The notes beneath the pieces are model-generated. The model did not search any database. It was not told the DNA's origin and saw nothing but the letters and a program-made list of their open reading frames with translations. This document shows positions 57,277 to 62,651 of a DNA stretch of 64,000 nt, piece by piece. Positions within the stretch are counted from its first letter, which is position 1, and every line of letters starts with the position of its first letter. Origin of the DNA: Oricola cellulosilytica (GTDB lineage: Bacteria > Pseudomonadota > Alphaproteobacteria > Rhizobiales > Rhizobiaceae); assembly GCF_019966575.1 (NCBI RefSeq), contig NZ_JAINFK010000004.1:62001-126000 (forward strand), in the 5' to 3' direction. Both the position numbers and the translations under genes were made by a program.

Positions 57277-57879
57277 CTACTTGCCCTCATCGTGAGACGG
57301 CGCGCCGTGAGACGGCCCGGCGTCGTCGTCGCTAAGTGGTTGATTTTCCTCGGTTTCGGAATAGGCGATCTTCACGCCTTCGAGCAGCTTGCCGAACGCC
57401 TGGTCGATGTTCTCGCCGGTCTCGACCGGCGCGCCCAGGTTGATGAACAGCGCCCCGGCGTTCGCCCCCGGCAGCTCGATCGCGGTCGGCAGCTTCTGCG
57501 CCACGTAGGGCGCCAGATCGTTCATGACCTTGCGGTGATACTCGGCCGCCTCGATCTTCTTGCACCCCAGCGTCCGGGCGATCACGTCGATCGGCGTGGC
57601 GACGATCTCGGCCATCGCCAGGATTGGATGCCGCCCGGTCGCCTCGATCAGCTTCACCAGCTCTTTGGTCGACTTGCCGAGCGAGCCCTTCGGCCGGCCC
57701 GGCCCGGTGCGCGTCGTCTGGCCGTCCGGCGTCTTGATCTCGCCGAACACGCTGGATCCGGCGAACAGCTCGTTCTGGATCGGCGCGTCCGCCTCGCCGC
57801 GCAGCTCATCGGCCAGCTCGCCCGCCTTGCCGTCGAGATCGAGCGCCTTGCCGACGCCGGTCTGCTTCTCACCGGCCAT
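57277..57879 (-). CDS. Terminase small subunit
   Basis: 200 residues from the ATG at 57879 (a GTG at 57885 is possible; the ribosome-binding site GGGGGTGA favours the ATG). After a disordered acidic start comes GRPKGSLGKSTKELVKLIEA, a basic segment typical of TerS DNA-binding regions, then a helical domain (MAEIVATPIDVIARTLGCKK and IEAAEYHRKVMNDLAPYVAQ) usual for phage TerS. The same domain pattern recurs in the 60242-61030 protein. The GGAAC-box array begins 55 bp upstream and is its most likely cis-acting target. Confidence 0.8.
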   Translation of the reverse strand: MAGEKQTGVGKALDLDGKAGELADELRGEADAPIQNELFAGSSVFGEIKTPDGQTTRTGPGRPKGSLGKSTKELVKLIEATGRHPILAMAEIVATPIDVIARTLGCKKIEAAEYHRKVMNDLAPYVAQKLPTAIELPGANAGALFINLGAPVETGENIDQAFGKLLEGVKIAYSETEENQPLSDDDAGPSHGAPSHDEGK

Positions 57880-57933
57880 ATTCACCCCCTTTTTTATTCA
57901 AGTGGCTGAAATCGCGACGTTTTTTCGCGGTCT

Positions 57934-58164
57934 GGAACAATGGAACAAGCGCCGTTCCAAGGAAACCAAGGGATAACCCTTTGATATCTCTCTGATATTC
58001 AGAATGTGGAACAATGGAACAATGGAACACGCAATCCTTCATGCGCGCGCGCGTAGGCGAGGCATCAACGTTCCAGCGTTCCATTGTTCCACATCTCGAT
58101 TGCTGCATTGTTTTCAACGGCTTGCGCCATCGGCATATTGGAACGGGGCATGTTCCGCCGTTCC
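57934..58164. promoter_or_regulatory. Dyad-symmetric array of twelve GGAAC/GTTCC boxes (candidate packaging or replication site)
   Basis: Forward GGAAC boxes start at 57934, 57942, 58008, 58016, 58024 and 58140. Reverse GTTCC boxes start at 57954, 58070, 58078, 58086, 58152 and 58160. Within clusters the period is 8 bp, usually as TGGAACAA repeats. Reflected about 58049, every box falls exactly on another, so the 231-bp array is symmetric at single-base precision. It occupies the otherwise gene-free gap between the replicative ATPase gene and the small-terminase gene. A multi-subunit DNA-binding protein such as TerS (a pac/cos site) or a replication initiator is the obvious ligand; a repressor is possible. 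Confidence 0.75.
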
Positions 58165-58281: not shown

Positions 58282-60225
58282 TCATTCCTCGATCTCCTCG
58301 GCCTTCACCAGAATTTCGCCAAGGATGAATGCCGTGCCGCGCTTCTTGATGCCGTCGATCCGCGCCGACGCATCGCGCCAGATATCCTCCGGCGCGCTCT
58401 GCAGGGCGTATTTCCAGCTCCCGGCCGACAGTTCGCCGGCCCACTTGCTGTCACGCATCAGGGCGTGCAGCAGCGGGTGCTGGTCGGGCACGAAAAGCTC
58501 GAAATGCTTGGAGCCGGCGCGCGGCTTCATCAGCGAAAGGCCGGTCTGCTCGAGGAGGCGGCGGGCCTCGTCGTAGCGGATCGGATCGGCATCGCCGCGA
58601 AGCCGCGAATTGGGGTCGTCGCGTTCCCAGAACTCGGTTATCACCTCGCCGACCGTGTGCCGCGTTCCGCCCTTCCAGGCCTCGATGCGCTGCGACAGGA
58701 CGTGGTTGAGGCACAACCGCCAGTTCTCGCTGGCGTCGTCGTGCTCGAACATCTGCGCCGCCTGGAAGTGCTCGCGCCAGGCCTCGCGGTCGTCGGCGGC
58801 CGGGCCGATCAGCAGGTTCAGCGCCTCGGCGTCGTAGCCGATCGCCAGGTCGGCCGCCGCCATCAGCGTTCCGAACGTGTCCTGCCCCCGGCCGTCATGG
58901 CCGCATGACGCCAGGAACTCGCGCCAGTTCGCATAAGTCTGCGGCCAGCGGTGCCACTCCTCGCGAAGCCGCGTGATCAGCTGCCGGCCGATTTCCCGCA
59001 ATTCGGGGTCGGGGATGATCGGCCGGACCGCGCCGTCCCGGTGCGGCCGCAAGCGCAGCAGTGCCAGGCGCGACAGGTCCTGCGGGTCGAGCGGCGGCGT
59101 GTTGATCGAGGAGAACAGGTAGCTTGAGCGGCCGAAGAACTTGGTGCCCTTGTGGTTGTCGCCGCCGCGCATCATCGGCGCGCCGGTGCACGACAGCCGG
59201 GCGAGCTCGATCACGGCCTTCATCTTGCGGGTGTCGGCCTTGCCCTCGAATTCGTCGATCGCCACCGGCAGGCTGTCGAAGCCGAGCTCCTGATAGATGC
59301 CGGCCGCCGTGGTGTCGCCGGTCTGGACGATCCCGTCGCCGAAAAGGGCCTTGGCATCGCGCTGCAGCGTCGACTTGCCGGTGCCCTTGTCGCCGAGGAT
59401 GAAGCATTCCGGCCGCCACTCGAGCGCGCCGCCGATCATGGCCGAGGCGATCCAGCCGAGAAGCAGCACCGGGTCGAGCCCCGGCCGCACCCAGTTCCAC
59501 GCCTGGAAGTGTGGCAGCAGGCGGCGCGCAGGCCCCGGCTTGTCGCGGATCGCCTGCGGCCAGGGCCGGTTGATCGGCGGGCGGGTCGGATAGACCGCGC
59601 CCTCGAACTCGCCGAGCGGTTCCTCGCCGCGCGCGGTGATCAGCCGGTCGCCGCAATGCAGCACCAGGTCGCCCTTGCGATCGGTCCAGAAGCCGCGCCC
59701 GCGAACCTTGTTGGCCGGCGACCAGGCGCCCTTTTTCGCGCAGGCCGCCATCAGGCATTCGCGCACCTTCTCGGCGCGCCATCCGGTCACCGCGCCGTCG
59801 GCGTTCTTCTTCGGAAACGCCCAGTAGAGCCACCAGTGCCGGCCCATGAACAGCGCGTTCAGCGGTCCCTGGCCGAACTCGCCCTCCTTGAGGACGCGCA
59901 GCTGCCCGATCGTGTCGAGGAAGAAGAACATGCCGTTGTCCGTGCCGAGCGGCATCACCGGGCAGTCGGGCGGCAGGCCGAATTCGTCCGGCTCCCAGCG
60001 CCCGGGATCCCTGCCGTCGAGCTTCTGGCCCGGCGGCGGGTCGTTGACCTGGTCGAACGGGCTGGACTCGCTCTCGGCGTCCATGACCGCGGCGCGCACG
60101 CGGTCGCGGCCCGCGCCCGGGCCGCCCGCCGCAGCGAGCGCCTTCTGCGATTTCAGCGGCCGGGCCGTGGCGAAGGGGTCGAACGCCCCCTCGCCCTGGC
60201 CGTCGCCGGGCGTTTCCTTGGCCAT
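58282..60225 (-). CDS. Phage replicative ATPase/helicase (D5/DUF927-like AAA+ type)
   Basis: 647 residues. The ATPase core has Walker A LGDKGTGKST (278-287) and a Walker B-like VAIDEFEGK (321-329). NHKGTKFFGRSSYLFSSINT with a polar sensor-like segment and LALLRLRPHRD (arginine-finger region) follow. The N-terminal 240 residues may hold a primase-associated fold (DNGMFFFLDTIGQLRVLKEG). It follows the toprim primase and TerS-like-domain genes, so it is the probable replicative helicase of the phage. Confidence 0.8.
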   Translation of the reverse strand: MAKETPGDGQGEGAFDPFATARPLKSQKALAAAGGPGAGRDRVRAAVMDAESESSPFDQVNDPPPGQKLDGRDPGRWEPDEFGLPPDCPVMPLGTDNGMFFFLDTIGQLRVLKEGEFGQGPLNALFMGRHWWLYWAFPKKNADGAVTGWRAEKVRECLMAACAKKGAWSPANKVRGRGFWTDRKGDLVLHCGDRLITARGEEPLGEFEGAVYPTRPPINRPWPQAIRDKPGPARRLLPHFQAWNWVRPGLDPVLLLGWIASAMIGGALEWRPECFILGDKGTGKSTLQRDAKALFGDGIVQTGDTTAAGIYQELGFDSLPVAIDEFEGKADTRKMKAVIELARLSCTGAPMMRGGDNHKGTKFFGRSSYLFSSINTPPLDPQDLSRLALLRLRPHRDGAVRPIIPDPELREIGRQLITRLREEWHRWPQTYANWREFLASCGHDGRGQDTFGTLMAAADLAIGYDAEALNLLIGPAADDREAWREHFQAAQMFEHDDASENWRLCLNHVLSQRIEAWKGGTRHTVGEVITEFWERDDPNSRLRGDADPIRYDEARRLLEQTGLSLMKPRAGSKHFELFVPDQHPLLHALMRDSKWAGELSAGSWKYALQSAPEDIWRDASARIDGIKKRGTAFILGEILVKAEEIEE

Positions 60226-60241
60226 GGATCGGATTTACGCT

Positions 60242-61030
60242 TTACTTGGTTGCGGCTTTTTTCGACTTAGCCCGTGCTTTGGCAGCCGGTTTTTTGACTT
60301 CAGGCTTTTCTTGCGGCTTGTTTTCCGGGCTGTCCTGCCGATCCCCATGGCCGCTCTTAGGCGAAGATGCGGCGGCGGGTTTTTCAGCGCCGGCCTTGCC
60401 GTCAGCGCCTTGATCCTGCTCGGCAGCATCGCCGGCCGGTTTTTCATCCCCGGGGTCCTTCGGTACTCCGGGATCTTTCGCTGCGGCCGCGCCGGCCCCA
60501 GAATGCTGATCAGGCTCGGCATCGGATTTCTCCATGATGAAGGGCGCCGCGACCCGTGCGGCGATGAGCTGTATGTTCGCGGCCTCGATCAGGCTGCATC
60601 CGAGCAGTTTGTGCGCCAGGTCATCCGTCGGGGTCGCAATGATCTTCGCCAGGTACTCGAGCGGCCCGTCATCATCATCGAGCAGGGCCGCAAGGATCTC
60701 CATCGATGCGTCCAGGGCGACCGGCTCGCCGTCGATCGACGGCAGCGGCGCGGCGTTCTCGTCGAGATACGGGTCGAGCAGCTTCACCATGCCGGCATAG
60801 ATCTCGAAGAACCGCCGCGCGGGCGGCGGCGCTTCGGCGAGCGACGTCCAGGGGAAGCGCCTGCCGGCGATCTCGCTGAACTTGCGCGCCACGGTTTCGG
60901 CCGGCGGGAACTGCCGGGCGCGGCAATAGGCAAGCAGTTCCTCGGGGGCGGGCTCGCCGGTTTGCCGGTCGAACTCGGCCACATGGGCCGCGACGCGGTC
61001 GGCGAGCGAATGGATGTCTCGGGATCTCAT
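60242..61030 (-). CDS. TerS-like-domain phage protein with histone H1-like basic tail
   Basis: 262 residues, ATG overlapping the primase stop (ATGA). An N-terminal helical domain (1-100) precedes LAKIIATPTDDLAHKLLGCS and IEAANIQLIAARVAAPFIME (about 122-162), which aligns with the small terminase at ATP-D, A-LGC, IEAA and AP-(F/Y). The last about 100 residues are low-complexity: an acidic Gly/Ala stretch, then a Lys/Ala/Pro tail (EKPEVKKPAAKARAKSKKAA) like histone H1 or bacterial HU-tail proteins. It probably binds DNA; the role, in replication or in packaging start, is unknown. Confidence 0.65.
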   Translation of the reverse strand: MRSRDIHSLADRVAAHVAEFDRQTGEPAPEELLAYCRARQFPPAETVARKFSEIAGRRFPWTSLAEAPPPARRFFEIYAGMVKLLDPYLDENAAPLPSIDGEPVALDASMEILAALLDDDDGPLEYLAKIIATPTDDLAHKLLGCSLIEAANIQLIAARVAAPFIMEKSDAEPDQHSGAGAAAAKDPGVPKDPGDEKPAGDAAEQDQGADGKAGAEKPAAASSPKSGHGDRQDSPENKPQEKPEVKKPAAKARAKSKKAATK

Positions 61031-62151
61031 ACGGGTTCTCCTTTCAAGAGGTCGTTCATGTCCTTGCCGATCGTCGAGCGCGCGATCGCGACGGGCCTGC
61101 CGTGGGCCTTCAGGGCGGCCACGGCTCTCCCCAGGGCTGCCGAGGCCTGCTTGTTGTGCCAGTCATTGTCGGCGGCGACGATCACGCGCGAAACGCACGG
61201 CAACACCGGGACATGGGCGATGTTGCCGAGCGTGCCTGCCGCCCAGACGCGGTGGTCCGGGCAGGAGATTGCGATGGAAAGTGCGTCCTCGATGCCTTCG
61301 GTGACGACGAGCGGGCCGGCGCGGCCCTGCCGCGCGGCTTCCTCGGGCGTCAGGTCGCCCTCGCCTTTCGAGATGCGGATCACCGCGCCGACCGGCGACG
61401 GCCAGATCTTGCGCGCCTTGTTGCGCTCGGGGTCGGGGAACGCCGCCTTGCCGCTTCCGTCCGGCGAAAGCCAGGTGCGGTGGATCGCCTGGTGGCGGCC
61501 GTTCGCGCCGGTCATCAGCGTCACCATGCAGGGCCGGTGCGTCCGGCCCCTGCCCTCCGCCAGGACGTAGGGCTCGCTGGCGGAAAAGCGGATCGCGCCC
61601 GGCAGCGGCCGGCCGGCGTCGATCAGCCAGCGCTTCAGGTCGAGCCCGCGGCTTTGCAGATACGTCTCGAGCAGCGAGCCGGGAAAGGTGTCCGGCGTGA
61701 GTTTTACGCATTTCAGCCACAGCGAGAACGCCCGCCCGGACTGTTTTGCCAGTTCCTCGGCCTCGCTCGCCTCGCGCTCGGCGCGCTGCTTCTCGCGCTG
61801 GCGCTCGACCGCGCGGCGGGCGGCGTCCGACATCGGCTTTTGCGGCCCGCTTTTCCAGCCGAGCCACCGCACGCACCAGTCGCGCGTCGCCCGGTAGTCC
61901 GGCAGCTGGCCGAGATACTGCACCAGGTTGATGACATCGCCGGTGTCGCCGGTCGCCTCGTCCTTCCACACGCCCGGATTGCGTTTCAGCAGGATCCAGA
62001 ACGATCCGGCGTGGCGGTCGTCGCGCAGCGGGTTGCGGCCGATCCAGTAGCCGCCATTGCGGTGGCCGTCCGGCAGCAGCTCGCGCGCCAGCGCCTCGAT
62101 GCGGTCCTGCAGGGCCTCCTTGATGTCGGCGAAATCGGACGGGCGGTTCAA
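61027..62151 (-). CDS. Phage primase with toprim domain
   Basis: 374 residues from a TTG at 62151 overlapping the previous stop (TTGA). RNGGYWIGRNPLRDDRHAGS and GVWKDEATGDTGDVINLVQY are the primase-type N-terminal region (zinc-finger-like position without cysteines). The toprim domain has LVVTEGIEDALS (281-292, catalytic glutamate) and VIVAADND (323-330, DxD aspartates). IGKDMNDLLKG closes the protein as in DnaG/P4-type primases. It should make primers for the ATPase at 58282-60225. Confidence 0.82.
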   Translation of the reverse strand: MNRPSDFADIKEALQDRIEALARELLPDGHRNGGYWIGRNPLRDDRHAGSFWILLKRNPGVWKDEATGDTGDVINLVQYLGQLPDYRATRDWCVRWLGWKSGPQKPMSDAARRAVERQREKQRAEREASEAEELAKQSGRAFSLWLKCVKLTPDTFPGSLLETYLQSRGLDLKRWLIDAGRPLPGAIRFSASEPYVLAEGRGRTHRPCMVTLMTGANGRHQAIHRTWLSPDGSGKAAFPDPERNKARKIWPSPVGAVIRISKGEGDLTPEEAARQGRAGPLVVTEGIEDALSIAISCPDHRVWAAGTLGNIAHVPVLPCVSRVIVAADNDWHNKQASAALGRAVAALKAHGRPVAIARSTIGKDMNDLLKGEPV

Positions 62152-62570
62152 AGCGTCGCCTCTGGGCACGAAAGCACCCGCTCCATCGTGCCGAGCAGGC
62201 GGTCGATCTCCGGGCAGTCGCGGCGGTCCTCGACGGCGTGGCAGATCGCGTGGATGCGCCGGCGCGGGCGGCCGAGCGCCAGCGCCAGGTAGTATTGGCG
62301 CGTGTCGAACACGGTGACCGCCAGATAGATCGCCGCGGACTGGGCGAAGGCGAGCCCGGCGATCCGCGGCTTGCCCGGCCGGCGCGCCTCGAGGATCCGG
62401 TCGAGCGGGTATCCGGAGAAGCGTGCGACCGTCTGCGCGGCTGTGCGCCATGCCGCCTCCGCGGCGGCGACCTGCATGCGCCGGCGGCGTCCCGGCACGC
62501 GCGGGCCGTAATGCTGGCCGGGCCGTATCGCCTCGGTTCTGCGCCGGTGCCGGGATGTCGTTCGCGCCAT
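62148..62570 (-). CDS. DnaA domain IV-like DNA-binding phage protein
   Basis: 140 residues from the ATG at 62570. The very basic N-terminus (MARTTSRHRRRTEAI and GPRVPGRRRRMQ) is followed by a region that aligns with the C-terminal DnaA-box-binding domain of DnaA: VARFSGYPLDRILEARRPGK (compare V-x-x-Y-x-V-x-x-x-x-L-x-x-x-RR), AFAQSAAIYLAV (ARQ-x-A-x-YLA), then LGRPRRRIHAICHAVEDRRD (GRDHTTV-x-HA) and PEIDRLLGTM. The AAA+ ATPase of DnaA is absent. A stand-alone initiator-like binder could recruit or compete with host DnaA at a phage origin. Confidence 0.65.
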   Translation of the reverse strand: MARTTSRHRRRTEAIRPGQHYGPRVPGRRRRMQVAAAEAAWRTAAQTVARFSGYPLDRILEARRPGKPRIAGLAFAQSAAIYLAVTVFDTRQYYLALALGRPRRRIHAICHAVEDRRDCPEIDRLLGTMERVLSCPEATL

Positions 62571-62651
62571 GAGACTTTTCTGCAGTCCGGTTAAAAGGGC
62601 CGGGCGCACGCGAGACTGGCTCGCCCGGCAGTTGGACGGGAGGTACGCAAA

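Follow-up and report, generated by a model that had tools for sequence, protein, structure and literature searches.

What would a phage do with twelve copies of a five-base word, set out as an exact mirror image between a replicative ATPase gene and a putative small terminase gene? A prophage of Oricola cellulosilytica raises this question in the 64,000-nucleotide stretch of DNA that we analysed as a whole and refer to as the window. The first-pass annotation of this DNA had left two functions side by side, a replication origin and a packaging site. We found the replication origin to be the better supported of the two, and we propose that the array is probably an origin bound by the phage's own D5-like self-loading helicase, of the kind known from P4 alpha and SaPI Rep.

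The box array and its surroundings

The array spans 231 bp (57934-58164) and consists of twelve boxes, six GGAAC and six GTTCC, in four clusters (Table 1). As the first-pass annotation had noticed, every box maps exactly onto a partner of opposite orientation about position 58049; when we reshuffled the array's own gaps and orientations, full exact symmetry arose in 1 of 5000 trials. The spaced pair GGAAC-N3-GGAAC occurs six times in the window, each time within the array (100 dinucleotide shuffles: mean 0.11, maximum 1). Across the host genome there are 18 such pairs, and the array's six are the only ones that are grouped, the others being scattered. As in origins of the P4/SaPI type, sets of iterons flank AT-rich DNA, here the two outer spacers, and the central spacer holds a 16-base run of alternating purines and pyrimidines that none of 100 shuffles reached; these spacer GC and tract statistics come partly from locus L002, which is the same phage.

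Table 1. The box array of the window with its spacers and neighbouring genes
Feature	Position	Strand	Remarks
Putative small terminase (TerS)	57277..57885	-	Named by position and by the first-pass annotation; start 48 bp from array
Box cluster 1	57934..57958	.	GGAAC at 57934 and 57942; GTTCC at 57954
Outer spacer 1	57959..58007	.	AT-rich; GC 0.37 versus 0.67 in flank
Box cluster 2	58008..58028	+	GGAAC at 58008, 58016 and 58024
Central spacer	58029..58069	.	GC 0.63
Alternating purine-pyrimidine tract CATGCGCGCGCGCGTA	58040-58055		16 bases, across dyad centre 58049
Box cluster 3	58070..58090	-	GTTCC at 58070, 58078 and 58086
Outer spacer 2	58091..58139	.	GC 0.47 versus 0.67 in flank
Box cluster 4	58140..58164	.	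GGAAC at 58140; GTTCC at 58152 and 58160
D5-like AAA+ helicase, proposed initiator	58282..60225	-	647 aa; array 117 bp 3' of gene
Winged-helix-like C-terminal domain of helicase, proposed box reader	58306..58584	-	Residues 548-640
Toprim primase	61027..62451	-	Same replication module; Toprim_3 PF13362, PHROG 510

The placement between the helicase and small terminase genes stands as first described. The putative TerS has no Pfam or NCBIfam match. Among the other phage genes, the large terminase is a relative of BcepC6B TerL and the connector gene belongs to PHROG 332. Directly upstream of the helicase gene, a gene at 60242-61030 (minus strand) encodes a basic-tailed protein related to the putative TerS, the relation consisting of iterated profile matches common to terS genes. 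A member of a small-protein family, with a C-terminal segment that looks DnaA domain IV-like by eye, is encoded at 62148-62609 (minus strand).

Two other accounts of the array were considered at the level of its letters. The alphaproteobacterial LexA box is GAAC-N7-GAAC; the array's 8-bp pitch gives N4, and LexA boxes are therefore ruled out as its elements. The first-pass annotation had also drawn attention to a minus-strand open frame under the array, which might itself have been the conserved object. Among 12 other arrays, four (L204, L215, L186 and L190) lack a stop-free frame in the terS direction and eight have at least one. A conserved protein frame over the array is thus not universal, by a test that the presence of such frames in 8 of 12 arrays makes weak.

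A layout kept with changing boxes

The array had been taken at first sight for a selected protein-binding architecture, and its relatives bear this out. Three IMG/VR relatives with about 62% helicase identity (L031-L033) keep a four-cluster array in the same place with different spacers; L030 is the same phage as the window's. To survey arrays more broadly, we performed pattern scans of IMG/VR. Convergent pairs were returned at 37 loci and divergent pairs at 78, and 113 of these loci are distinct. Arrays of 6 to 20 boxes were found in 110 of the 113, with at least eight boxes in 101. Thirty-four arrays from these loci have exactly twelve boxes and span 231-337 bp, all except one falling within 231-263 bp (33/34). 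Having been picked by box pattern, these loci show breadth and not rates, and their symmetry and GGAAC counts are biased. When GGAAC and control words were compared within one set of loci, arrays of at least eight boxes numbered 143 for GGAAC versus 0 to 28 for the control words (CAAGG 4, GACGA 28, GCAAG 0, GAACG 16, AGGAC 0, CGAAG 8), with overlapping loci counted apart.

The arrays share a grammar looser than that of the window: about twelve boxes in four clusters, a box pitch of mostly 8-13 bp, and gaps between clusters that differ in steps of roughly one turn of DNA. The outer spacers are AT-rich, and purines and pyrimidines alternate at the centre. Exact symmetry was seen in 1 of 71 distinct GGAAC layouts of at least eight boxes, that of the window array itself, so exact symmetry is not the conserved property; the mean mirror score is 0.63 versus 0.42 for shuffled layouts, mostly from pattern-selected loci. 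Distances of 20-80 bp between neighbouring clusters (252 gaps in 71 layouts) have a period of about 10.0 (R 0.39, jitter-null maximum 0.23), which is found both in convergent gaps (R 0.42 versus null 0.33) and in divergent gaps (0.55 versus 0.37), and no period was found in the 43 same-orientation gaps of 20-80 bp. When all box pairs were scanned for a period, the best was about 9.4; the helical step is confined to adjacent gaps of 20-80 bp. In central spacers the alternating purine-pyrimidine run has a mean of 13.9 versus 6.1 when shuffled. Its length is significant (p ≤ 0.05) for 42 of the 70 central gaps versus 16 of the 177 other gaps, and 12 of 15 central gaps in a further set of arrays also pass. 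The other long spacers average a GC of 0.49 versus 0.60 in the flanks.

The same layout is built from other boxes in other phages. Using a motif-free array search beside helicase homologues, we found it with GAGAC (L012/L186), GGGAC (L013, L014), TAGAC (L017-L019), GTAAC (L028, L155) and AGAAC (L154), and, read on the opposite strand, with ATAAC (L191) and GTAAC (L195). Wider samples contributed CTAAC, CCAAC, further GTAAC and one further TAGAC. In a register of our own choice, every box class can be written as NNRAC except the CTCAC of Synechococcus phage MinM1. For a sample free of box selection, we drew 32 helicase loci by protein search alone, and by our tally 22 of these have an array in the stretch read. 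The ten without an array, three of them on short contigs (L283, L289 and L298), include L198 (score 15) and L293 and L296 (palindromic words). In genome G119, two prophages share one layout but use different boxes, GGGAC (L014/L188) and GTAAC (L028/L189), which argues that specificity is phage-encoded; the two prophages may be able to replicate independently. A blastn search of the arrays against phage records gave nothing useful. The sequence GGAACNNNGGAAC is absent from 11 phage records that we reached through similar terminases or helicases, two of which, MT835534 and MT835930, carry arrays of other boxes.

We applied the motif-free search to eleven named phage records in which a helicase homologue occurs, and six of them have arrays: phi1422, MinM1, S-H1, Acjo_20, MQ-4 and ZRG1. 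The weakest is that of S-H1 (score 21 versus a shuffle maximum of 14), and no array was found in the stretch read, about 8 kb on each side, in PY223, Mwe-JY13, PHB04 and Touem01; the result for KLER1-1 was ambiguous. In S-H1, phi1422 and MinM1 the array follows the helicase gene directly on its 3' side. It is also 3' of this gene, at 1.7 kb in MQ-4 and at 4.6 kb in ZRG1, and it is 5' of it in Acjo_20. In Bdellovibrio phage phi1422, a 12-box GTAAC array (L306:9570-9900) lies directly 3' of a primase gene, and its spacing series (9,10,15,63,8,90,8,63,15,10,9) is the second that is exactly mirrored. In Synechococcus phage MinM1, a 12-box CTCAC array (L307:9697-9916) lies between helicase-like and terminase large subunit genes.

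Some phage contigs of one phage family have two arrays per genome. On contig IMGVR_UViG_3300020179_000002, for example, one array lies by the primase gene and the other near the large terminase gene (L228:5923-6188 and L229:7025-7276), and the two unequal spacers stand in opposite order in the two arrays.

The helicase C-terminal domain as candidate box reader

In the 647-residue protein encoded beside the array, residues 88-399 match the PHROG 35358 DNA primase profile, and the greater part of the chain matches an uncharacterised family. The predicted fold of the protein is D5-like. Specifically, Foldseek with the AlphaFold model (mean pLDDT 83.6) gave 251 matches in the PDB at E ≤ 0.001, and the 50 of these that were listed are all ASFV PrimPol, MPXV E5/D5, NrS-1, SaPI5 primase-helicase or PriRep1, at probability 1.00, though with a TM-score of only about 0.3 by query length. 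From this model, the proposed initiator is predicted to be a D5/SF3-type hexameric helicase, as at origins of the P4/SaPI type. The last 175 residues, modelled with a pLDDT of 83.8, appear winged-helix-like; at E ≤ 0.001 nothing in the PDB matches this model, and its weak matches include winged helices at probability ≤ 0.25. The domain also occurs outside the helicase. At locus L208, where the helicase gene is 4.2 kb from the array, a Bro-N protein (PF02498; 9354-10196, minus strand) with a second copy of it adjoins the array, and at L283 a second protein, of 328 residues, carries it.

To determine which protein changes together with the box, we compared pairs of phages matched on core similarity, a matching that is less than a full phylogenetic correction and that used hand-set 5-base registers. 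Helicase residues 548-640 were the one region in which sharing a box went with greater similarity (z 2.59 and p 0.007 for 41 proteins), with p 0.0025 in the 31 that have TerS and p 0.041 in a pruned set of 32. In the same matched test, no same-box excess was found in the N-terminal, AAA and lid/linker regions of the helicase or in TerS. An earlier column test of box tracking stood at 7 of 300 permutations. In a partial Mantel test, for which G150 and G158a still had their earlier box register, the C-terminal domain could not be told apart from the AAA core (0.01, p 0.47); the values were 0.04 for TerS given AAA and 0.45 for AAA given TerS.

The helicase is favoured as the reader of the boxes because its residues 548-640 track box type where TerS shows no excess, because a Bro-N protein with the same C-terminal domain sits beside the array at L208, and because arrays lie near replication-type genes in phages without a detected member of this TerS family. 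The best candidate for the binder is thus the helicase's own C-terminal domain, with its predicted winged-helix-like fold, which the first-pass annotation had not named among the possible binders. It had named TerS. TerS similarity does not follow box type (z -1.96), TerS has an invariant GRP-x-G motif with no obvious helix-turn-helix by eye, and together with the Mantel values these results do not favour it.

A proposed origin, its rivals and its known counterparts

The array was found 3' of the helicase gene in all 34 genomes with gene and array on one piece, and likewise in all nine further array loci of the wider sample. It was also found 5' of terS in all 29 genomes with this terS family, at 90 bp or less in 27 of them, so adjacency alone favours neither binder. 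More than 1 kb separates array and helicase gene in eight of these 34 genomes, and the six of the eight with a known terS (G147, G150, G158a, G210, G216 and W11) have the array within 90 bp of terS; at L288 and L297 the array is 5-8 kb from the helicase gene. Among 48 array genomes, a relative of the window helicase went undetected in 11, G215 being a fragment and the reading of several others falling just short of complete, and a member of the window terS family went undetected in 19. Arrays in unrelated phages lie by a primase, helicases or other replication-type genes. The repeats directly 3' of the initiator helicase, 117 bp away in the window and with Acjo_20 as the exception, resemble origins of the P4/SaPI type in this respect. 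Support from GC skew is negative: in 2 of 19 cases the skew extremes fell within 5% of the genome from the array, and 3.8 were expected.

We propose that the D5-like helicase binds the GGAAC boxes through its winged-helix-like C-terminal domain. The four helically phased clusters would hold helicase subunits, and two oppositely directed rings could form, one for each half of the dyad. The AT-rich outer spacers, the alternating purine-pyrimidine centre, or both could subsequently melt, with priming by the Toprim primase encoded nearby, so that replication would start at the array.

The main rival is a packaging recognition site, pac or cos-like, that is bound by TerS and cut nearby to start packaging. 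This would account for an array that is regularly 5' of terS and that stays by terS in the six genomes where it is apart from the helicase gene, and the two-array phages do have one array near the large terminase gene. A second array by the primase would be unexpected for such a site, however, and box type follows the C-terminal domain of the helicase and not TerS. The partial Mantel values, the TerS sequence itself, and arrays that adjoin helicases or primases in genomes with no detected member of this TerS family also speak against it, and we consider a packaging site unlikely.

Less likely again is a dual site, in which one array would serve as origin and packaging site and terminase recruitment would be coupled to origin DNA. 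It would suit an array that adjoins both the helicase gene and terS in most genomes having both, as well as the family with one array by the primase and another near the large terminase; against it, there is no sign of box type following TerS, and in 19 of 48 array genomes no member of this terS family was detected. An operator for a phage transcription factor, controlling late genes from the gap between the helicase and terS genes, seems very improbable. The intergenic place upstream of terS and the Bro-N protein beside the array at L208 are compatible with it, but it leaves the four phased clusters, the central alternating tract and the rule of lying 3' of the helicase unexplained, and the candidate binding domain sits on the helicase.

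The DnaA-domain-IV-like protein of 62148-62609, which the first-pass annotation had also offered as a binder, can practically be dismissed as initiator: its family was detected in 21 of 48 array genomes, so that by this gene the array genomes share no DnaA-type initiator, its gene was not found in G119a (about 19 kb read on each side) or in G212 and G216 (contigs read almost whole), nor in 23 further records by a search that was uninformative for want of a positive, and no Pfam DnaA domain was recognised in it.

If the array is a replication origin, the origins of many uncharacterised phages and prophages could be recognised by one shared grammar, among them those of the cultured phages phi1422 and MinM1. 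Pairs of box and C-terminal domain would then offer natural material for deciphering the recognition code of self-loading helicases, and the alternating tract at the dyad raises the testable question of where such origins melt. We are evenly divided over a wider reading, in which these arrays would belong to a large, hitherto unrecognised class of phage origins that all have four clusters in phase, AT-rich DNA in two spacers and a centre prone to form Z-DNA. The helicase C-terminal domain would change together with the box, which would give many mutually independent replicons able to coexist in one host, as in G119. Its boxes would be NNNAC-like (GGAAC, GAGAC, GGGAC, TAGAC, GTAAC, ATAAC, AGAAC, CTAAC, CCAAC and CTCAC). 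Compared with the parts of the literature that we examined, what is new is the arrangement of four clusters in a dyad, together with its alternating centre and the switching of boxes. A literature search conducted mostly outside subscription journals found no published description of these arrays.

The first-pass annotation did not recognise the design from a described system, and P4 crr and the PICI origins now answer this in part. In its annotated record, P4 crr is required in cis for replication and lies directly 3' of alpha. Its 12 GTGAA-type boxes, also writable as TGAAC, occupy 269 bp in four clusters that are 42, 96 and 42 bp apart; 10 repeats are annotated as type 1. As a positive control of our motif-free search, crr scored 33 (shuffles 9-12). 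It is like the window array in its short boxes (pitch 7-15 bp), its four clusters and its place 3' of a helicase-primase gene, and P4 has a second array at ori, just as one phage family of this set has two. P4 alpha is described as binding its repeats through a winged-helix domain (PMC4234260). Unlike the window array, crr is made of two direct 120-bp repeats with no inverted dyad, and an alternating tract is missing from its centre, where the longest run is 5 (p 0.96). Alpha also unites primase and helicase in one chain, whereas the window encodes a separate Toprim primase and helicase. A comparison of the helicase C-terminal domain with the single P4 alpha C-terminal sequence, which is a weak test, detected no relation.

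The origin of SV40, a eukaryotic virus, has four GAGGC pentamers. Like the window array, the origin of SV40 large T antigen has repeats in opposite orientations, and these load head-to-head hexamers. Large T antigen has an N-terminal DNA-binding domain (PMC7581432), and SaPI origins have been likened to the SV40 origin (PMC9894130).

SaPI Rep and Cch2 have iterons 3' of their genes that are read by their C-terminal domains, and in SCCmec the Cch2 helicase has 5-nt iterons (AAGTG) 3' of its gene, bound by its C-terminal domain (PMC7581432). The SCCmec Cch2 origin has three iterons only, versus the twelve boxes of the window array. In PICIs the origin directly follows rep on its 3' side and has two sets of iterons that enclose an AT-rich region, and some PICI elements carry terS (PMC6092414). 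The array phages have their own terminase and portal/connector genes, unlike PICIs, and the window prophage, with its large terminase and connector genes, does not look like a satellite lacking a full set of virion genes. The SaPI/PICI systems resemble that proposed for the window in the place of the origin 3' of rep and in the fold match of the window helicase to SaPI5 primase-helicase and PriRep1. Where PICI origins are described with two iteron sets and one AT-rich region, the window array is built of four clusters, with AT-rich DNA in two spacers and alternating purines and pyrimidines at the centre.
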